Shown: one piece after another, positions 6,368 to 33,918 of the stretch
Position numbering within the stretch: position 1 is the first letter of the stretch
Layout: each line of letters starts with the position of its first letter
NCBI GenBank assembly: GCA_028698525.1
Contig: JAQVDB010000021.1
Coordinates: forward strand, 1 to 34,355
Direction of reading: 5' to 3'
Length of the DNA stretch: 34,355 nt
Origin: Clostridia bacterium
GTDB taxonomy: Bacteria > Bacillota > Clostridia > JAQVDB01
The notes under the pieces: generated by a model
Told to the model about the DNA's origin: nothing
The model's input: only the letters and a program-made list of their open reading frames with translations
Databases searched by the model: none
Translations under genes and position numbers: made by a program

Positions 6368-6979
6368 TTAGGGGTTTTGGTCAATTGTGCTCTTGATTAT
6401 TTTAAACAAAATAGGTTTCATCTCATCCATCTTAAATGGCTGTTCCAGCACTATGGCACTATAACACACTGAACCTATCATATCCACAATAATAAAAAGG
6501 ACTTTCTTGGCATCTTCTATATCATAGCCCTTGCTGACCAAACCATTTATAAATTCATCAACAATATTGCTTATCTCAAGATAATTGTGCTGATCCTTTA
6601 AGGCTTTAGTAAACATCCCATACGATAAATCCTTATGAATTATCTTCAGCAAAATCTTGTTTTTCTTCAAATATTCTATTATGAAGTTGGTAAAATAAAT
6701 TACCCTGTCTTCAAAATTAGAATGCTCCTCACTATGCGCCGCCTTGCTGGCTTCAACTATAACTTCTGTGCTCTTTTTCAAGATAATTAGATCAAGGATA
6801 TCGTACTTGTCATTAAAATAAAGATAAAAGGTCCCTTTGGCTACACCTGCATTATTTACAATATCGCTTATAGTAGTGTTATTGATGCCCTTAGTTGTAA
6901 ATAAATTGTACGCTGCTTCAAAAATTGCATTTCTTTTAAATCTTTTGTTCTCAAGCACCTTGCTGTTCTTCTCTTCCAC
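6368..6979 (-). CDS. TetR/AcrR-family regulator of module A
   Basis: 203 residues from a GTG at 6979 with AGAGGTGA about 6 nt upstream. The N-terminal helix-turn-helix is clear: TTISDIVNNAGVAKGTFYLYF, then NDKYDILDLI. Residues about 70-200 are the all-helical ligand and dimer domain, which has no recognisable specificity. It is the first gene of the TetR-MMPL-heptad operon and its own promoter is framed by two dyad operators, so autorepression released by a ligand (probably the pump substrate) is the natural reading. This is inference from architecture. Confidence 0.92.
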   Translation of the reverse strand: MEEKNSKVLENKRFKRNAIFEAAYNLFTTKGINNTTISDIVNNAGVAKGTFYLYFNDKYDILDLIILKKSTEVIVEASKAAHSEEHSNFEDRVIYFTNFIIEYLKKNKILLKIIHKDLSYGMFTKALKDQHNYLEISNIVDEFINGLVSKGYDIEDAKKVLFIIVDMIGSVCYSAIVLEQPFKMDEMKPILFKIIKSTIDQNP

Positions 6980-8055: not shown

Positions 8056-8063
8056 ATAGATAT

Positions 8064-8098
8064 AAAATATGCACCAGATTTAATCTGGTGCATATTTT
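8064..8098. terminator. Bidirectional terminator between convergent genes
   Basis: Perfect 16-bp stem (8064-8079 with 8083-8098), 3-nt loop, core GCACCAGAT/ATCTGGTGC, with A/T-rich outer ends that give U tracts in both directions. It sits between the aminotransferase stop and the stop codon of the minus-strand TetR, which it slightly overlaps. Confidence 0.9.
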
Positions 8099-8693
8099 AT
8101 ATGCTTATACCGTATTTTATAAGTTCTATCAACTGCTTTTTCTCTTTCTCTATCTTTATCTCATCATCTTGTGCTAAACTTCTCATGCTATATGCTATAA
8201 TCATATTAACAAATATATCGGCAGTAAATTCCTTGTCTATATCCTTTACCTTGTCTTCCTTCTGTCCCATGCGAAATATATCTATAATAATGCTTATCAA
8301 TTGCTTTCTATATTGGGAAATGATGGACGACAGTCGTTCCTTTGTTTCACTCTTTAAATAAATACCTTCATTCCTCAATCTCATGATATGAGCAATTTTC
8401 ATATTTTTATCTATCAACTTTGAATTAATATTTACAAAAGCATCTATCTTGCCTTCAAAATCTGATTTTATTCCTATTTCGCTTTCTATAAGATCAAAAC
8501 ATTTAGCAAAATTACATTTCACCACTTCTACAAAAAGTTCTTCTTTACTTTTAAAATATTCGTATATAGTGCCTTTTCCTACTTCAGCAGTCTCTGCTAT
8601 ATCGGATATACTTGCATTATAAAAGCCCTTTTTGCTGAAAGTTTTAGTTGCAGCATTTAATATGATTAATCTTTTACCTTTGTCTTTTGTCAC
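8097..8693 (-). CDS. TetR/AcrR-family regulator of RND pump module B
   Basis: 198 residues from a GTG at 8693; a TTG one codon earlier is also possible, and AGAGGGGG serves either. Helix-turn-helix: ASISDIAETAEVGKGTIYEYF followed by KSKEELFVEVV, a typical AcrR-like recognition helix. The rest is a helical effector domain. It is the last gene of the adaptor-pump-TetR operon, starting 14 nt after the pump stop, so it is made with the pump it probably represses through the dyads at 13194-13220. The drug or lipid sensed is unknown. Confidence 0.92.
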   Translation of the reverse strand: MTKDKGKRLIILNAATKTFSKKGFYNASISDIAETAEVGKGTIYEYFKSKEELFVEVVKCNFAKCFDLIESEIGIKSDFEGKIDAFVNINSKLIDKNMKIAHIMRLRNEGIYLKSETKERLSSIISQYRKQLISIIIDIFRMGQKEDKVKDIDKEFTADIFVNMIIAYSMRSLAQDDEIKIEKEKKQLIELIKYGISI

Positions 8694-8707: not shown

Positions 8708-11700
8708 CTATTTACCTGTCTTAAACTTGATTGCTATATCATCAAATAAAGTATATATAACAGGAACTATTATAAGAGTCAATACTGTAGACAGTATGAG
8801 ACCTCCTATAATGCTGATGGCTAATGGTCTCTCCAGTTCAGCCCCTTCTCCTATCCCCAATGCAAGGGGAAGCAACCCCAGCACTGTGGTAAGGGTGGTC
8901 ATCAATATAGGTCTTAATCTGGCAGGCCCGGCTTCCAATATGGCAGCAGTTCTGTCATTTCCTGCTTCTCTCAGCTGGTTGATATAATCGACTAAAACTA
9001 TTCCGTTGTTCACCACTATCCCTGCCAAAACAATCATACCTAGCAAACCTGGTACACTCAACGCCTGACCTGTCAAAAAAAGCGCTAAAAAAGCACCGGT
9101 TAAAGCCAAAGGAACTGAGAACATTATTGTAAAAGGATAAACCAGGGATTCAAACTGGGAGGCCATTATCATATATACCAATATTATCCCCAACAAAAGT
9201 GCCTTGCTCAAATCTTCAAAGGCTTGCTGGAGCTGCTCACTCTCGCCCCCTACATATAAGCTGTACCCTTCAGGTAATCTATAACTTTCCAATTGTTCTT
9301 CAATATCTTTAACAACACTCCCTAAATCCCTCTGTTTGATAGAAACTGAAACCTTTACAACCCTAGTCTGACCCTCTCGTTGTATTTGAATAGGTCCTTT
9401 TTCGCCATATATATCTGCAATATTTTTTAGCGGTACAGTCATACCTAGGGGTGATTGTACAGGCAAATTTTCTATATCATTTAAATCGAGATGATCTTTG
9501 TTTTCAACCTGCACTCTCACATCCATTTCTCTGCCACCTGTTTTATATCTAGTTGCTACATTTCCCTGTAAAAATCCCTGAACAGTGGAAGATACCAACG
9601 CAACATTTATTCCGTATTGTGAGGCCCTTTCTCGGTCCAGCACTATTCTAAATTCTGGACTCCCCTCTTCAAAACCACTCTCTACTTCTGCTACTCCTTC
9701 AACCTTCCTTGCTATATCTGCCACATCAAATGATATGTCTCTCAAAATATCAAGATTGTCTCCTTCTATAGCTATCGAAATAGGTGCACCCGAAATCCCG
9801 CCGGTAGCATTGGCCATCATTGAACCACCTGCATCCACCTTTACCTCCGCCCCAGGGATTTGAGCAACTTTTCCCCTTATTTCTTGAGCAATATCCTGGG
9901 TACTTCGATTTCTATCTTTAATAGGCTTTAGATTTACAGTTATACTACCGTTATCTCCGGCTGAAGGCGTATAGCCTGCAAACATTTCATTTCCTCCTAC
10001 ACTGCTGGCTACAATATCTGCCTCAGGTATGGAATATACTACATCCTCTATCTCTTTCACGGTATTTACAGTCTCATCATATTTTGTTCCCTTGGGCATA
10101 TTGACAGTAATACTAATCTGCCCTTGATCTACAGTTGGAAAAAATTCCGACCCAATGAAAAATGCAGAGAGCAAAGATGCCACAAAAACTCCCATAGCTA
10201 TGAAAACTACGGCTGCCCTATGTTGTATAGACCAATTTAATAAGTTATGATATTTCTGGTTTATATATTCTAAAACCCTATTTTTCCTCTCCTGAGAATT
10301 TTTGTTGGTAAGAAGCTTTGAAGAAAGCATGGGAACAAGGGTTAAAGCTACAACTAAAGATGTAATCAAAGAAAAGGTCACAGTCAATGCCATCTGCTTG
10401 AATATCTCTGCCGTTATACCCTGAACAAAAACTATTGGTATAAAAACACTTATAGTTGTAAGGGTAGAAGCAGTAATAGCCATGGCCACTTGACTGCTTC
10501 CTTCTTTAGCAGCATCCATCATTCCAAATCCTTCCTGCCTCATCCTATATATGTTTTCCAAAACAACAATAGAATTATCTACCAACATGCCTACACCCAG
10601 AGCAAGTCCCCCAAGGGATATAATATTCAAAGTTGTTTCAGAATAATATAGCAAAATAAAAGTACCTATAACTGATATAGGTATAGACGTAGCGATGATC
10701 AATGTAGGTGCAATATCTTTCAAAAACACCAATAGAATCAGTATAGCAAACAGACCGCCTATCAATGCACTCTTTGCAACAGAAGAGATAGAAAGATTGA
10801 TAAACTCTGCTTGGTCCAGCACAGTTGTGATGTTAACGTTGCTATACTCTTGAATTATCTTTTCTATCTCCTGGTTAACCTTTTCAGATACTTTAACAGT
10901 ATTAGCATCGCTCTCCTTCTGTATAAAGACGCTTATGCTATCCTCTCCATCTATCTTTGAATAAGCAACCTTCTGTTTGTCTGCATACTTTACTTGACAT
11001 AAATCTTTGAGCAAAAACTTAGTGCCACTTTGCGTGACCACAGGCAAATTTTCTATATCTTCTAGGCTCTCAAACTCTCCAGTTGTCCTGACTAAAAGGT
11101 CATACTGCCCTTCGGTAATCATTCCTCCGGGAGCATTTATGTTTTCCATACGGATGGCATTTACAACCTGCTCAAGGGATATATTGTTAGCAGATAACCT
11201 ATCAGGATCTACAATAACTTTTACCTCTTTTTCTGTACCACCTGCTAAACTGATGGAAGCCACACCATCCAATCTTTCGATACGAGGTTTTAATACATCC
11301 TCTACCCAAAGCCTAGTAGTATTCATATCCTCTCCAGTCTTTGATACACCAAAAGATATAATTGGAAGCATATTTGGATCTAATTTTAAAACTATAGGTG
11401 AACTTATACCCTCGGGAAGCATCCCCTCTATTAAATCTAATTTTTCCCTCATCTCAAGGGTGGCGAAATCCATATCAGTTCCATTATTGAATTCAAGTAT
11501 TACTATAGAATTCCCTTCCGATGATATGGAATTGATTTTCTTTACATTGCTCACAGTGGCCATAGTATTTTCTATATTCTTGGTTACAATCTCTTCTACC
11601 TCTTTAGGCCCTGCACCGTTATAACCTGTAGATACTGCAGCAACAGGAATATTTATATTAGGAAGTAAATCAACATTTAATCTCGTAAGCGAAACAACAC

Positions 11701-11773
11701 CCAAAAGAATTATTATCAACATTATCATAGTGATAGTAACCGGGCGCTTTATACTGAATTCTGATAGCTTCAC
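8708..11773 (-). CDS. RND efflux pump permease, AcrB/SwrC (HAE1) type
   Basis: 1021 residues, the usual RND size. TM1 is at about 11-30, the first large porter loop at 31-335, a cluster of membrane segments at about 335-480, TM7 near 515-540, the second porter loop to about 850 and the last membrane cluster to 1010. The TM4 proton-relay motif reads GVGMLVDNSIVVLENI: D399 is kept while the second Asp of AcrB is Asn. TM10 has GIVVNNGIVLVDY, without the AcrB lysine. Both are common in Gram-positive RND pumps. The GTG start shares one base with the adaptor TAG stop, and GGGGTG lies 7 nt upstream within the adaptor gene. No outer-membrane channel gene is near, consistent with a monoderm SwrC-like exporter of drugs or lipopeptides. 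Confidence 0.95.
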   Translation of the reverse strand: MKLSEFSIKRPVTITMIMLIIILLGVVSLTRLNVDLLPNINIPVAAVSTGYNGAGPKEVEEIVTKNIENTMATVSNVKKINSISSEGNSIVILEFNNGTDMDFATLEMREKLDLIEGMLPEGISSPIVLKLDPNMLPIISFGVSKTGEDMNTTRLWVEDVLKPRIERLDGVASISLAGGTEKEVKVIVDPDRLSANNISLEQVVNAIRMENINAPGGMITEGQYDLLVRTTGEFESLEDIENLPVVTQSGTKFLLKDLCQVKYADKQKVAYSKIDGEDSISVFIQKESDANTVKVSEKVNQEIEKIIQEYSNVNITTVLDQAEFINLSISSVAKSALIGGLFAILILLVFLKDIAPTLIIATSIPISVIGTFILLYYSETTLNIISLGGLALGVGMLVDNSIVVLENIYRMRQEGFGMMDAAKEGSSQVAMAITASTLTTISVFIPIVFVQGITAEIFKQMALTVTFSLITSLVVALTLVPMLSSKLLTNKNSQERKNRVLEYINQKYHNLLNWSIQHRAAVVFIAMGVFVASLLSAFFIGSEFFPTVDQGQISITVNMPKGTKYDETVNTVKEIEDVVYSIPEADIVASSVGGNEMFAGYTPSAGDNGSITVNLKPIKDRNRSTQDIAQEIRGKVAQIPGAEVKVDAGGSMMANATGGISGAPISIAIEGDNLDILRDISFDVADIARKVEGVAEVESGFEEGSPEFRIVLDRERASQYGINVALVSSTVQGFLQGNVATRYKTGGREMDVRVQVENKDHLDLNDIENLPVQSPLGMTVPLKNIADIYGEKGPIQIQREGQTRVVKVSVSIKQRDLGSVVKDIEEQLESYRLPEGYSLYVGGESEQLQQAFEDLSKALLLGIILVYMIMASQFESLVYPFTIMFSVPLALTGAFLALFLTGQALSVPGLLGMIVLAGIVVNNGIVLVDYINQLREAGNDRTAAILEAGPARLRPILMTTLTTVLGLLPLALGIGEGAELERPLAISIIGGLILSTVLTLIIVPVIYTLFDDIAIKFKTGK

Positions 11774-13176
11774 TAGTCTTCACCCCGGACAATTTTAATT
11801 TTAGCACCGTCACTCAAAAAATCTTTACCCTTAGTAATAACTTTTTCTCCCCCATTTAAGCCTGATAAAATTTCTACATATTCTTGATCTTGTATTCCGA
11901 TTTCCACCTGCACCTTCTTGGCTCTATCACCATCTATAATAAATACAAATGAATTTCCTGCTTGATCTAATATACTCTTTTTAGGAACTGCTATACAATC
12001 CTTTTTCTCATCAACTTTGATACTGGTCTTTGCAAACATACCGGATTTAATAATTCCATCTGGATTGTCTATTTTTATACAGGCAGGATAAGACTGAGTC
12101 TTAATATCCAAAGTAGGACTTATATAATCTATCACACCTGATACACTTGAATCATCCAATGCCTCAATGACAACATCAACCTTTTGCCCCTCTTCTACCT
12201 TGTTTACCTCGAATTCAGTCAAGTTTACATCCAAAGTAACTTCACTGGCATCTACTACAGTTGCAGGAGGCATATTTTGAACTGCCATCTCCCCTTTTTC
12301 CACTGTCAGGCTGGCTACTATCCCATCTATCGGCGATTTAAGCTTTAAATTATCTCCTGCACTTTCGGCCATATCCACCCCTATCTTTGCCTGTTCCAAT
12401 TGGGCATCAAAGGCTTTCTGCTGTATAGGAGTCAGCTTCAGCTTTGATTCTAATTCTATCTTTGCTCCTTCAAGTTCTGCTTTTTTGCTCAATAACTGCT
12501 GTCTCCCATTAACCATTCCCGATAAATTAATAGCATTTCCTGCCGCCATTCCCCCAGATATATCCCCTAGATATTGCTTATACTCATCTGGTACGTTATT
12601 TTGTATGTATTTAGTCAACTCTTGCTGAAATTGCTGTTGGGTTATCTCGCCTTTCTGCAATTGTTGTGATAATTTAGATAGCTGGCTAGAAACCTTTTCG
12701 GTCACTTGATCCATCTTTTTTATCTGACTGTCTATTTCACCGATAGCTTTATCAAGGTTATTCTTTTGCGCTGCCAATTCATCCAATTGTTTTTTGGATA
12801 GCTGGATATTTGCACTAGCAGCGTCATAAGCAGCTTGGGCCTGTTTTATCTGCATATCTACGTCGCTGCCCTCCAACTCTATCAGCACCTCACCTTCTTT
12901 TACTGCCTGACCTACTTTTACATTGACCTTCTTTACCGGACCGGGAATCTTGGGCACAACCATTATCTCCTTACCGGCCTCCAACTTACCGGACAGCTCT
13001 TTGGCTACTTGTATATCTTTCAGCTGTACCTCTTCTATTTCAACAGAAACAGCATCTGTTCCGCCTTCTTCCTGCCCTTCATCACCCTGTTTTTTGATAC
13101 CGCATGATGTCAATACAAAAATCAGCATACAAAAAACAACAATGATGAGTATGCTATTTCTTATCCACCTTTTCAC
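11773..13176 (-). CDS. RND adaptor (membrane-fusion) lipoprotein
   Basis: 467 residues from a GTG at 13176 with AAAGGAGG 10 nt upstream. Residues 1-24 form a lipoprotein signal with lipobox LTSC, so the mature protein is anchored outside the membrane by C25. A biotinyl-lipoyl-like half motif (IMVVPKIPGPVKKVNVKVG) precedes a long alpha-helical hairpin (about residues 110-295, rich in Gln, Lys and Leu), then the second lipoyl half (LKSPIDGIVASLTVEKGE), beta-barrel and membrane-proximal domains (IAVPKKSIL, GGEKVITKG). The hairpin is longer than in AcrA. It is the first gene of the operon and overlaps the pump gene by one base. The adaptor is needed for energy-coupled export by RND pumps. Confidence 0.93.
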   Translation of the reverse strand: MKRWIRNSILIIVVFCMLIFVLTSCGIKKQGDEGQEEGGTDAVSVEIEEVQLKDIQVAKELSGKLEAGKEIMVVPKIPGPVKKVNVKVGQAVKEGEVLIELEGSDVDMQIKQAQAAYDAASANIQLSKKQLDELAAQKNNLDKAIGEIDSQIKKMDQVTEKVSSQLSKLSQQLQKGEITQQQFQQELTKYIQNNVPDEYKQYLGDISGGMAAGNAINLSGMVNGRQQLLSKKAELEGAKIELESKLKLTPIQQKAFDAQLEQAKIGVDMAESAGDNLKLKSPIDGIVASLTVEKGEMAVQNMPPATVVDASEVTLDVNLTEFEVNKVEEGQKVDVVIEALDDSSVSGVIDYISPTLDIKTQSYPACIKIDNPDGIIKSGMFAKTSIKVDEKKDCIAVPKKSILDQAGNSFVFIIDGDRAKKVQVEIGIQDQEYVEILSGLNGGEKVITKGKDFLSDGAKIKIVRGED

Positions 13177-13193
13177 TGATTATCATCCTCCTT

Positions 13194-13220
13194 TGACTGA
13201 ATGTTCGGTCACCAAACATT
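13194..13220 (-). promoter_or_regulatory. Overlapping dyad operators of module B
   Basis: Two interlocked dyads lie between the -10 and the Shine-Dalgarno site. The first (13194-13211) has arms TGAC-Y-GAA and TTC-R-GTCA. The second (13200-13220) has arms AATGTT-Y-GGT and ACC-R-AACATT around one central base. Both have only one or two mismatches between arms. This is a typical TetR-family target, and the operon's own TetR is the likely ligand. Confidence 0.65.
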
Positions 13221-13246
13221 TTATACTTGATTCCATACACTGTCAA
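13218..13246 (-). promoter_or_regulatory. Promoter of the module B operon
   Basis: Minus-strand perfect TTGACA (13241-13246), 17-nt spacer, TAAAAT (13218-13223). The operator dyads start within the -10, so a bound repressor would cover the transcription start. Confidence 0.75.
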
Positions 13247-13259
13247 TAAAAAAAATAGA

Positions 13260-13328
13260 GTGACAAGGGGACGTTTCGTTTGACACAGTTTTTCTAAAAC
13301 TGTGTCAAACGAAACGTCCCCTTGTCAC
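13260..13328. repeat. REP-like 33-bp hairpin element, copy 1
   Basis: A perfect inverted repeat: 33-bp arms (13260-13292 with 13296-13328) around a 3-nt loop. The outer stem is GTGACAAGGGGACG, then the core GTTTCGTTTGACACAGTTTT. The inner part of the arm recurs at 33485-33550. It has no U tract, so it is not a standard terminator. It lies between the nitroreductase stop and the module B promoter. Such GGGGACG...GACAC palindromes are often scattered in clostridial genomes and resemble REP elements spread by RAYT-type Y1 transposases; no such transposase is present in this window. Confidence 0.85.
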
Positions 13329-13351
13329 GATGCAGCAAACATAACAATATT

Positions 13352-13879
13352 CTATTCTTTATATACATCCCAGTATACCAATTCGTCCATATCTTTTCTC
13401 TTAGTTTGATGGCGGTTCACATCTACCTGGTCTGCAGGATAACCTAGGGGCAAAAGCACGATAGGTTCAAGATTGTCAGGTAATTCAAGCAATTGATGGC
13501 ATTTCTTTGCATCAAATGCACATATCCAACAGGTACCCAAACCTAATTCTGCAGCAGCTAGAGTCATATGATCCACTGCTATTGCAACATCCACATCACA
13601 GTGATCTTTGCCATCCCCCCTGTGCCAAGATTTATCATGATCACCACATGCTACTATAATAACAGGGGCCTGCAAAATCCAATCCCTCTTATATGTAACA
13701 GAAATCTTTTTCCTCATATCATCATCCTGTAAAACTACAAGCTTAACAGGTTGAAGGTTGGCAGCTGAAGGAGCAATTCTCGCCGCTTCCAACACCTGCT
13801 GCAATTTTTCCAGCTCTACAGGCTGATCCTTATATTTTCTAGTAGAATATCTTCTTTTAGCTAAATCAATAAAAAACAT
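13352..13879 (-). CDS. Nitroreductase-family FMN oxidoreductase
   Basis: 175 residues from the ATG at 13879, with GGGAGG 8 nt upstream; an upstream in-frame start at 13927 lacks a ribosome site. The N-terminus has RRYSTRKY, the FMN-phosphate arginines, followed by VLEAARIAPSAANLQPVKLVV, the classic nitroreductase signature. The centre has AVDHMTLAAAELGLGTCWICAF and the end has LLPLGYPAD. At about 175 residues it is a small subfamily member that should act as a homodimer using NAD(P)H. The physiological substrate is unknown. It is a single gene, divergent from the DUF3810 gene. Confidence 0.93.
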   Translation of the reverse strand: MFFIDLAKRRYSTRKYKDQPVELEKLQQVLEAARIAPSAANLQPVKLVVLQDDDMRKKISVTYKRDWILQAPVIIVACGDHDKSWHRGDGKDHCDVDVAIAVDHMTLAAAELGLGTCWICAFDAKKCHQLLELPDNLEPIVLLPLGYPADQVDVNRHQTKRKDMDELVYWDVYKE

Positions 13880-13916
13880 TATATATACCTCCCTATTTTT
13901 TATTATAGTCGATAGC

Positions 13917-13946
13917 TTACAAGACAAAACAGAATAATTTTATAAT
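13917..13946 (+). promoter_or_regulatory. Promoter for the DUF3810 gene
   Basis: TTACAA (13917-13922), 18-nt spacer, perfect TATAAT (13941-13946). The predicted start near 13953 coincides with the earliest possible GTG codon, which argues for the downstream ATG at 13989 as the true start. A TATAAT on the opposite strand (13902-13907) may serve the nitroreductase. Confidence 0.5.
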
Positions 13947-13988
13947 AAAAAGGTGAATACTAATAAAAGCAATAAAAGGATGGTGGAA

Positions 13989-15038
13989 ATGAGAAAATCC
14001 ACAAATTATGTCATACTACTTTTGCCCTTGAGTTTAGTAATATCATATTTAGCCACATATATACCCGAAAAAGTGGAAATTATATACTCGACTGTCATGT
14101 TCAGATTTTTCAGCCAAATCCTCAATTATTTCAACGCTTTTTTCTCTATTTCTCTAGCAGAATTATTCATCATTTTTTCTATTATCTATTTTTTAATACG
14201 CATTGTCGATATCATTAAACTGACCAAAAAATATGAGATATTGACTTTGGCAAGAAATGGGGCAATTATAGTAAGTATTCTATATTTTTTATTTATCATG
14301 CTATGGGGTTTAAACTATCACCGCCTTCCATTTTCCCAAATGGCCCAACTGAACACCAGCTCTCCTTCCATAGAAGAGCTGGAAGTTGTATGCCATAAAC
14401 TAGCTGATGATGCAAATAACCTAAATAAAACAATGGAGCCAAAGCAAAAATCCTATAATGTGTTTACACGGGCTCAAAAAGGGTATCAAATTATATCAAA
14501 AACTTATCCTGAATTAACAGGCAAATATACTAGAGCCAAGAAAGTGATATTATCTGATGTATTGTCCTATATGGGCATATCAGGATTTTACTTTCCCTTT
14601 ACAGGAGAAGCCAATATCAATACCAATATTCCCCCCTGTACCCTACCCTCCACCGTATGCCATGAAATGGCACATCAAAGAGGGATCGCACGGGAAGATG
14701 AAGCCAACTACATCTCATATTTGGTATGTACAAACCACCCTGACCCTGATTTTAAATATTCCGGTACCTTATTGGCTTTGATATACTGTTCTGCTGAATT
14801 ACGAAAACATTCCCTTGACAAATATTATGACCTGAATAAAAAATATAACTATAATCTAATGGAAGACCTCCGCTCGATAAATAAATTTTGGAGCAAATAT
14901 CAAGGACCTATAGAAAAAATATCCTCAAACATAAATGATGCATATCTTAAATCTAACATGCAAAATAAGGGAATAAAAAGCTACGGTGAGATGGTAGATC
15001 TTGTGATAGCAGAATATAGAAAAACCAAGTCACCATAA
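13989..15038 (+). CDS. DUF3810 membrane protein with a zinc-metalloprotease motif
   Basis: 349 residues from the ATG at 13989, with AAAGGA 8 nt upstream; a GTG at 13953 would add 12 residues but lies at the predicted transcription start. Three membrane segments occupy about residues 8-25, 55-75 and 90-108. The rest is an extracytoplasmic or soluble domain carrying TVCHEMAHQRGIAREDEANY: an HExxH zinc motif (about residues 225-229) followed by a glutamate-rich helix, as in gluzincin peptidases. The preceding segment, SGFYFPFTGEANINTNIPP, is also typical of DUF3810. The substrate is unknown; no peptidase activity is established by sequence alone. It ends 12 nt from the convergent DUF89 gene with no terminator between. 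Confidence 0.85.
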   Translation: MRKSTNYVILLLPLSLVISYLATYIPEKVEIIYSTVMFRFFSQILNYFNAFFSISLAELFIIFSIIYFLIRIVDIIKLTKKYEILTLARNGAIIVSILYFLFIMLWGLNYHRLPFSQMAQLNTSSPSIEELEVVCHKLADDANNLNKTMEPKQKSYNVFTRAQKGYQIISKTYPELTGKYTRAKKVILSDVLSYMGISGFYFPFTGEANINTNIPPCTLPSTVCHEMAHQRGIAREDEANYISYLVCTNHPDPDFKYSGTLLALIYCSAELRKHSLDKYYDLNKKYNYNLMEDLRSINKFWSKYQGPIEKISSNINDAYLKSNMQNKGIKSYGEMVDLVIAEYRKTKSP

Positions 15039-32170: not shown

Positions 32171-33457
32171 TTGAATTTTGAATTAATGCATCCAGCAGAT
32201 CAGATAGTAATGATAATGGAAAGAATTTATGGTTATGGTATGACAACAACATCCGGCGGAAATCTATCCATATTGGATGATAATGGTGATATATGGATTA
32301 CACCTAAAGGCATAGATAAAGGCTCCCTTACCCGTCAAGATATAATTCGAATAAAACAAGATGGAACTATTGATGGAATCCATGAGCCTTCATCAGAACT
32401 GCCTTTTCACGAAAGAATCTATCAAAAAAGACCCGATATAAAGGCAGTTATTCATGCTCATCCCCCTGCATTAGTATCCTTCAGCATTATCAGGAAAGTT
32501 CCAAACATAAAGCTAATTCCTGACGCTTGCCTGATTTGTGGGGAAATTGGAATAGCTAAATATGCTGTGCCGGGCAGCAAAGAATTAGGTAAAAATATTG
32601 CAGCTGAGTTTGAAAAGGGTTACCGTACTGTAATGCTTGAAAACCATGGGGTCGTTGTAGGAAGTGGGGATCTTTTCAAAGCATTTATGGCCTTTGAAAC
32701 TTTGGATTTTACAGCCAGGCTTGAAATTGAATCCAATAAAATCGGTAAGCCCATTGCCCTTACAGATAAGCAAATTAAAATTTCTAAGCACAAACAAGAT
32801 ATAAAGATGAATGAGTTTATTTCTCAACAATTTAGCAGTGAGGAACGCAATGCAAGACGTGAAATGTGTCAACTGATCCACAGGGCATATAACCAAAAAT
32901 TATTTACTAGTACCCAAGGCACATTCTCACAAAGATTGGATGATAATTCTTTCCTCATCACCCCTTATGGCATAGATAGAAAATATTTAGATGTATCTGA
33001 CATTGTAAAGATCAAGGATGGTTGGAAAGAATCAGGCAAAGAACCCAGTAGGTCTGTCATGCTGCATAAAAGTATTTATGAAAAACATCCTGATATTAAT
33101 TCGGTTATCATCGCCCACCCACCGAATGTGATGACATTTGCAGTGACTGATCAAAGATTCGAGACTAAAACTATACCAGAGAGCTATATCATGCTCAGAA
33201 ATATACCGAAGCTACCTTTTGGTATAAGTTTTATGCAACCGGAAATGACAGCAGATTCCTTCTCAAGAGAAACACCCATTGTCTTGGTGGAAAACGACTG
33301 TATAATTGTAACAGGAGATACTCTTTTAAATGCGTTTGACAGGCTAGAAGTTGCAGAATACAGTGCAAAAGCCATACTTCTAGCATCCTCCATCGGTGAA
33401 CTTGTGGTCATAAACGATGATGAAATTTCAGATCTAAAAAAGGCTTTTAATTTATAA
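32171..33457 (+). CDS. Tandem class II aldolase/adducin protein with a degenerate second domain
   Basis: 428 residues from a TTG start with a perfect AAGGAGG 8 nt upstream; the next ATG, five codons on, is too far from it. Domain 1 (about 8-195) has a complete class II aldolase site: E76 in SSELPFH, H95 and H97 in HAHPP, and H159 in ENHG. Domain 2 (about 222-428) aligns with it but has lost the key residues: S295 for the glutamate, I314 for the first histidine (only H316 kept) and D376 for the histidine of ENHG. So one active and one structural half are likely, replacing the homodimer or tetramer interface. Family reactions include L-fuculose-phosphate aldolase and decarboxylation of sugar acids; the substrate is unknown. 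Confidence 0.88.
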   Translation: MNFELMHPADQIVMIMERIYGYGMTTTSGGNLSILDDNGDIWITPKGIDKGSLTRQDIIRIKQDGTIDGIHEPSSELPFHERIYQKRPDIKAVIHAHPPALVSFSIIRKVPNIKLIPDACLICGEIGIAKYAVPGSKELGKNIAAEFEKGYRTVMLENHGVVVGSGDLFKAFMAFETLDFTARLEIESNKIGKPIALTDKQIKISKHKQDIKMNEFISQQFSSEERNARREMCQLIHRAYNQKLFTSTQGTFSQRLDDNSFLITPYGIDRKYLDVSDIVKIKDGWKESGKEPSRSVMLHKSIYEKHPDINSVIIAHPPNVMTFAVTDQRFETKTIPESYIMLRNIPKLPFGISFMQPEMTADSFSRETPIVLVENDCIIVTGDTLLNAFDRLEVAEYSAKAILLASSIGELVVINDDEISDLKKAFNL

Positions 33458-33484: not shown

Positions 33485-33550
33485 GCCGGGGGGACGTTTC
33501 GTTTGACACAGTTTTTTAAAAAACTGTGTCAAACGAAACGTCCCCCCGGC
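33485..33550. repeat. REP-like 33-bp hairpin element, copy 2
   Basis: A perfect inverted repeat of 66 nt with no spacer between 33-bp arms. The inner core (GGGGACGTTTCGTTTGACAC, then AGTTTT) matches copy 1 at 13260-13328, while the outer stem is GCCGGG instead of GTGACAA, still fully paired. It lies between convergent genes and may block or end transcription there, but it lacks a U tract. Confidence 0.85.
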
Positions 33551-33561
33551 CTACTTTTTAT

Positions 33562-33918
33562 TTAATCTTTTGTAACTACTATATCGGCTCCGCTGTCAAG
33601 AATGTTTTGGATAACAACCTGACCTATTTCTAAAGGACTCTCTATTTCTACTTTCTTCAGCGCATCCATACATTCAAACATCAAATCCTTGGGTATGGGC
33701 TTATTGCTCCTGACAGAAACAACTGGCAGATGATAATTTCTGGTCTTTACAGTTGTAGTTAAAATTCTCATAGGATTTAAAAATTCACTTACAGCATATT
33801 GCTCTCCTCGTTTACATTTGATTCCAGAGATCTGAACTATTCTTTGTTTATCACCTTTAACTAGAATTTCACATCCTATGGGACAAACAACACAAGTTAC
33901 CTTTTTCTGTTCCATCAT
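33562..33918 (-). CDS. DUF1667 Cys-rich redox accessory protein
   Basis: 118 residues. The N-terminus has four cysteines in CVVCPIGC and IKCKRG, a likely metal or Fe-S site; then TTTVKTRNYHLPVVSVRSNKPIPK, the DUF1667 core, and a C-terminal NILDSGADIVVTK. Its start overlaps the stop of the upstream FAD oxidoreductase by 4 bases. In clostridia and related bacteria DUF1667 commonly closes a cassette of two FAD/NAD(P) oxidoreductases (glycerol-3-phosphate or hydroxyglutarate dehydrogenase-like) and probably acts as an electron-carrying subunit. That role is inferred from gene context. Confidence 0.9.
   Translation of the reverse strand: MMEQKKVTCVVCPIGCEILVKGDKQRIVQISGIKCKRGEQYAVSEFLNPMRILTTTVKTRNYHLPVVSVRSNKPIPKDLMFECMDALKKVEIESPLEIGQVVIQNILDSGADIVVTKD

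Follow-up and report, generated by a model that had tools for sequence, protein, structure and literature searches.

What keeps the two arms of a hairpin matched when the copies of that hairpin differ from one another in their outer stems? The question is raised by a 69-nt element on contig JAQVDB010000021.1 of a Clostridia bacterium (assembly GCA_028698525.1), within the stretch of 34,355 nt that was analysed as a whole and is called the window below. This element (copy 1) has a relative about 20 kb away in the same window (copy 2). A first-pass annotation, made from the letters alone, took copy 1 for a REP-like element of the kind moved by RAYT transposases and ascribed its retained pairing to selection for the folded form or to a replication mechanism acting on it. 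This first reading proved largely right, and the comparison with other genomes suggests that copying from arm to arm contributes more to the pairing than selection alone. The coupled arms are a more interesting result than the window elements themselves.

The two hairpins and their neighbouring genes

Copy 1 (13,260–13,328) consists of two REP-like units in inverted orientation, which form, as first annotated, a perfect stem of 33 bp closed by a 3-nt loop: positions 13,260–13,292 and 13,296–13,328 are 100% paired with 3 nt in between. It is the longest perfect stem of the window (33 bp, when none of 20 Markov simulations gave more than 11), the number expected by chance is about 1.5e-14 and the single-stranded DNA folds at −41.7 kcal/mol (z = −13.5). 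The left unit GTGACAAGGGGACGTTTCGTTTGACAC (13,260–13,286, + strand) comprises an outer part, the GGGGACGTTTC core and an inner part; the right unit (13,302–13,328, − strand) is its exact reverse complement, and the spacer AGTTTTTCTAAAACT (13,287–13,301) is near-palindromic and recurs in copy 2 with small changes. Copy 2 (33,485–33,550) has a perfect 31-bp stem and a 4-nt loop, and its arms carry the core 20-mer used for the genome search (33,490–33,509 on the + strand and 33,526–33,545 on the − strand). The core common to both copies, already recognized in the first pass, spans from the GGGG to the spacer, each copy being built of two inverted units of about 27 nt around a palindromic A/T spacer. 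Rfam gave no match within positions 12,900–14,000 of the window.

The unit consensus, drawn up by eye from the copies of the genome, is GTGTCAM-GGGGACGTTTCG-TTTGACAC, the core being framed by an outer and an inner half-stem. In most units, the outer part also pairs with the inner part, the loop holding the core, so that either one long hairpin or two short ones can form from a doublet. The outer stems of the two copies are different and still paired (GTGACAA/TTGTCAC in copy 1 versus GCCGG/CCGGC in copy 2), as had been claimed, but this claim needs refinement: the outer stem of copy 1 belongs to the repeat, as its outer part (consensus GTGTCAM) with an identical change on both arms, whereas that of copy 2 does not. 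Most of the pairing within units is gone from copy 2 (2 of 6 outer pairs are left), and yet its arms remain fully paired.

The placement of copy 1 between the stop of a nitroreductase gene and a pump promoter also holds. The nitroreductase gene (13,352–13,927, − strand, stop at 13,352; Pfam PF00881) faces copy 1 with its 3' end; directly after copy 1 on the same strand lies a terminator-like T-tract, TCTATTTTTTTT (13,248–13,259), and 13 nt beyond copy 1 stands a promoter-like site of the HlyD/AcrB pump genes, TTGACA-17-TAAAAT (11/12), which runs from 13,246 to 13,218 on the − strand. Copy 2 lies between two converging genes, a class II aldolase gene (32,171–33,457, + strand; PF00596) and a DUF1667 gene (33,562–33,918, − strand; PF07892), 32 and 16 nt from its core. 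Both copies are intergenic. Since they follow genes and have T-rich exits on the expected strands (on both sides for copy 2), a terminator role is likely: transcription probably ends at the window copies, from either direction in the case of copy 2. A scan for the intrinsic-terminator consensus lists none around copy 1, the scan counting at most 20 pairs and the stem being longer.

The surroundings hold other features. The pump genes (8,708–13,176) encode an AcrB-type RND pump and its HlyD partner; most genomes related to this one by the repeat are Bacillota. A near-palindrome, AATGTTCGGTCACCAAACATT (13,200–13,220), stands beside the −10 of the pump promoter and resembles a TetR-type operator; a TetR_N gene is found at 6,368–6,979 (Pfam). 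A further perfect, A/T-rich hairpin lies between convergent reading frames at 8,060–8,102, with 21 bp per arm or a 20-bp stem and a 3-nt loop according to the two methods used; no link of this hairpin to the GGGGACG family was seen.

The repeat unit and Y1 transposases

The genome search for the core and for a Y1 transposase gene, which the first-pass annotation had suggested, gave positive answers to both. The core 20-mer occurs at 15 sites with at most 3 mismatches in the 136-contig draft, against 0 for the reversed control. None of the 11 sites elsewhere in the genome has such a hairpin, all being single units or short direct arrays, and only four inverted pairs occur in the genome, of which only the two in the window belong to the unit type of copies 1 and 2. 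One locus (L016, 98–187, contig C77) carries three core units as a tandem direct array at the contig end.

Four Y1_Tnp genes are present in the genome. One of them, the C4 gene (255 aa), is flanked on both sides by the unit in inverted orientation: GTGTCAAGGGGACGTTTCGCTCGACAC precedes its start by about 30 nt, and an inverted GTGTCACGGGGACGTTTCGTTCGTCAC overlaps its 3' end, both units being 2 bases off the core 20-mer. Its product matches Pfam Y1_Tnp (61.4 bits, cut-off 23) and carries the HUH and tyrosine motifs NHVHLL and RYIHQNP; its sole NCBIfam match is REP_Tyr_transpos (74.2 bits, below the cut-off of 80; E = 9.8e-21), its C-terminal HTH matches are sub-threshold only and no PDB chain matches it. 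The C110 Y1 gene lies between CACAAGGGGACGGTCC units (L018, 2544 and 3379) that are direct and not inverted. Two GGGGACGG-type hairpins complete the picture, one on C105 with the GGGGACGGTCC core of C110 and a mixed one on C13. At least two RAYT-unit pairs thus seem to be present in the genome. The window hairpins are REPIN-like and have a likely cognate RAYT. The REP-like, RAYT-linked nature proposed for copy 1 is therefore borne out by the repetition of the unit and by the flanks of the C4 gene, but the unit has no GTAG and forms only two inverted pairs.

In a set of 148 genomes, made up of the source genome and of others related to it at the level of the class at most, the 20-mer was found with at most 2 mismatches in 7 genomes, source genome included, and the exact hairpin pattern in 2. 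A scan of a species-genome collection yielded at least 120 stretches, those among the matches listed being mostly from Bacillota and Omnitrophota; among these matches, the GGGGACG-core, GTAG-less class is widespread in both phyla. No description of this repeat class, nor any recognized description of locus-specific arm pairing, was found in the open-licence literature searched, most of it unopened, and the matches of an exact-string search of open-licence literature with GGGGACGTTTC, GGGGACGGTTC and their complements look unrelated, judging from the listing. Nine genomes with hits contain 4 to 93 inverted pairs each (93 in G149 and 44 in G151); as they were picked for having hits, nine out of nine does not measure prevalence.

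A Y1_Tnp search of 10 genomes found 12 RAYT-type ORFs in six of them, all six other than the source genome. Seven of these ORFs are accompanied by GGGGACG units, on both sides in six cases, and five are not. Four genomes that bear hairpins (G149, G151, G157 and G160) gave only IS200-like or fragmentary Y1_Tnp matches and no full-length RAYT. Many hairpins can therefore be present where no RAYT is visible, which argues against a strict one-to-one link between RAYT and hairpin. Where flanked RAYTs and hairpins occur in one genome, their half-stems agree: TGTCC/GGGACA in G142, TGGCA/TGCCA in G153 and G154, TGACA/TGTCA in G152, and, in the Butyrivibrio genome NC2007, GAGTCA/TGACTC and the GGGGACGGAGTCA type, with one RAYT for each of the two hairpin types. 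A tree built from 16 RAYTs places the C4 protein together with three others (97/94), each of which has GGGGACGTTTC-core units; most other forks are weak.

Pairing beyond the repeat and its possible causes

NC2007 contains 44 inverted pairs, 43 of which were used after removal of one nested duplicate; they fall into two classes. The short class (47–54 nt) joins two unlike units: the 2 nt beside the core agree in only 3 of 18 elements, pairing fades at the edge of the repeat and there is none beyond it. In the long class, these 2 nt agree in 23 of 24 elements and pairing continues into locus-specific flanks. At outward positions 10–12, 13–15 and 16–20, the paired fractions are 0.90, 0.69 and 0.53, versus 0.44, 0.28 and 0.29 when the right flanks are exchanged among elements (24 of the 25 long elements; 0 of 5000 shuffles at each range). 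G160 behaves in the same way, with 0.61, 0.56 and 0.45 versus 0.33, 0.30 and 0.27 (0 of 5000 each; n = 35 of the 36 elements fetched, L311 being dropped and a few partial or contig-edge places left out). The retained pairing noted in the first pass is thus real and, in these two genomes, far above shuffles.

The arms also share their internal structure. Some G160 arms reach 62–79 bp, with two or three units in each. Sixteen elements of NC2007 and G160 have nested units in both arms, and the junction of the nested unit is identical in the two arms in 9 of them, the same with small changes in 5 and different in 2 (14 of 16 shared); when the left segment of an element is compared with the right segment of a different one, the two are equal in only 0.011 (G160) and 0.067 (NC2007) of pairs. 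A further 16 elements have an extra nested unit in one arm only. Among 110 dimers from other genomes, a set from which eleven NC2007 loci had been deliberately excluded, the excess is slight (0.35 versus 0.28, and 0.32 versus 0.27 at positions 13–15), so that strong arm coupling may be confined to some lineages. Two G160 elements, L291 and L292, have the same paired extension beyond the repeat, GAGGCAG, which looks like the copying of an already extended hairpin. Along L276–L311 of the same genome, the central 5 nt of the hairpin are very variable (20 types in 35) and the arms near constant.

The terminator-like features of the window copies do not extend to the family. T-tracts are not enriched on the gene-exit sides of 42 NC2007 elements (4.71 T of 15, versus 4.76 on entry sides; p = 0.61), which indicates that they are not a family trait. 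By simple longest-ORF gene picks, 26 of the 44 NC2007 dimers lie between same-strand genes, 13 between convergent and 4 between divergent ones, with 1 unplaced; in the wider set, 22 of 121 dimers are inside such a pick and 17 at edges. At L185, L187, L202 and L205–L208 of NC2007, the TGA of the unit, or its complement, stands at the end of a flanking frame, 6 nt before the core, so that these frames apparently take their stop codons from the repeat.

Relatives of NC2007 offer sites with other contents, at an interspecies identity of 71–89% that makes the empty-site results suggestive only. The G157 counterpart of L177 has neither the element nor its 13-bp locus-specific stem, and no palindrome. 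At L172, G156, G157, G163 and G170 have a terminator hairpin of which only the right arm remains in NC2007; as this arm stands outside the paired flank of the element, the flank is not the old stem. The L190 slot is filled by ordinary terminators in G156, G157 and G170 and by repeat hairpins in NC2007, G160, G159 and G162; the hairpins of these relatives are unrelated, and the content of the slot differs in each relative read.

Several explanations can be put forward for such arms. The hairpins might merely be strong intrinsic, possibly bidirectional terminators, with pairing under selection for termination and a core that is incidental or recruited. The positions of copy 1 just past a stop and of copy 2 between convergent genes, their T-rich exits and the ordinary terminators in the L190 slot agree with this, but it is improbable given that the core recurs at 15 places, mostly as single units without a hairpin, and beside a transposase gene, that T-tracts are not enriched in NC2007 and that arms of 62–79 bp with matched internal junctions are superfluous for termination. 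Termination was kept as a secondary role only. An assembly artefact or a chance palindrome is hardly credible: the source genome is a 136-contig draft, but both copies are internal to a single contig, whose end is about 0.8 kb away from copy 2, and have unlike outer stems, the chance expectation given above is minute, and a like architecture is found in many other genomes.

Two further explanations, both rather unlikely in our judgement, concern the origin and the upkeep of the outer stem. Elements could insert at the apex of existing palindromes (terminators or other REPINs), the outer stem being the old target hairpin. REP dimers of some families are described as inserting within palindromes (PMC3733652); nested units and the occupancy of terminator slots are seen here, and GCCGG/CCGGC followed by T-tracts in copy 2 resembles a terminator stem. 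However, no unpaired loop remnants separate element and outer stem in NC2007, the empty site of L177 lacks a palindrome, L172 retains the old terminator's right arm only, outside the new paired flank, and truncation points match in both arms. Insertion into a ready-made palindrome is weakened above all by the L177 site and the matched truncations: it explains nesting but not the missing stem. The other explanation, selection on DNA or RNA for the folded form (as RAYT substrate, RNase III site or nucleoid protein site) with compensatory substitution, accords with the pairing of outer and inner parts within most units and with the compensatory changes that REPIN spacers commonly show (PMC3116915). 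It leaves unexplained the pairing of locus-specific flanks and the duplications and truncations matched in both arms, and copy 2 is down to 2 of 6 unit-level pairs despite full arm pairing.

The explanation preferred here combines REPIN-like doublets, spread by a RAYT, with a terminator role in the window and arms matched mainly by arm rewriting; as a whole, we consider it probable. The following scheme can be proposed. The C4 RAYT, or its ancestor, would process the single-stranded hairpin and spread it, an action on single-stranded DNA that is assumed by analogy with TnpA-REP work (PMC8266576). The spread elements would settle beside gene 3' ends, where the window copies, with their T-tracts, would terminate transcription. 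One arm would then be rewritten from the other, by template switching or by snap-back synthesis on the folded strand, and this rewriting, not separate selection of each base pair, would mainly keep the arms matched. It would yield contiguous pairing into unique flanks, matched truncations and freely varying loops. From the pairing into locus-specific DNA, the junctions shared in 14 of 16 elements and the L177 empty site without a palindrome, we infer arm templating. A more specific proposal, which we hold tentatively, is that GGGGACG REPINs are written as palindromes, an arm with its nested units, truncations and unique DNA being copied onto the other, possibly during RAYT transposition, and that the window copies are products of this process. 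The window copies can be read in this way only in the light of genomes of the NC2007 and G160 type, and the elements look mobile as far as their sequences tell.

PMC3116915 raises as open questions the way in which RAYTs disseminate REPINs and the means by which a REPIN remains symmetric although the excision product seen is asymmetric. The GGGGACG family, with its locus-specific matched arms, offers many natural records of the step that creates REPIN symmetry, and allows the idea of arm copying to be tested directly by comparing strains. The range of RAYT-linked doublets is also widened by it, to include a large class of Bacillota genomes of which the searched literature yielded no description.

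Relation to known elements

Bidirectional intrinsic terminators consist of a hairpin with T-tracts after genes. The stem found here is much longer than usual in such terminators, and differs from them by its repeated unit and its link to a transposase.

The CGTC-tagged REPs are, like the present elements, palindromic dimers near gene 3' ends, and the reverse strand of the core reads CGTC (PMC3733652). Theirs is an unpaired CGTC at one end of a stem of 8–9 bp, with no transposase, whereas here the motif lies within the stem and a RAYT gene is flanked by the unit. There is also a likeness to the TIRYT/TIRtron system (Di Nocera 2013, PMC3733652) and to TnpA-REP subclass 2.1 (PMC6006769): a Y1 transposase lies between inverted repeats that start with GGGG, and the repeats occur elsewhere as dimers or clusters. 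The TIRYT repeats follow GGGGWSAS, a pattern broken by the G at position 7 of GGGGACGT, and the C-terminal HTH matches of the C4 RAYT are sub-threshold only, another difference from both groups.

The Pseudomonas REPINs (Bertels and Rainey 2011, PMC3116915) differ from the present elements in their unit sequence: here the GGGGACGTTTC core stands between half-stems and there is no GTAG at the foot of the palindrome, as there would be in GTAG-tagged REPs. The source genome, moreover, has only four inverted doublets. Both kinds of element are inverted doublets that form a hairpin, are extragenic, are tied to a RAYT and show compensatory changes in the spacer; the present ones combine inverted units in one hairpin, repetition outside genes and a RAYT gene flanked by the unit on both sides, whose product has the Y1_Tnp domain with the HUH and tyrosine motifs of RAYT/TnpA-REP proteins.
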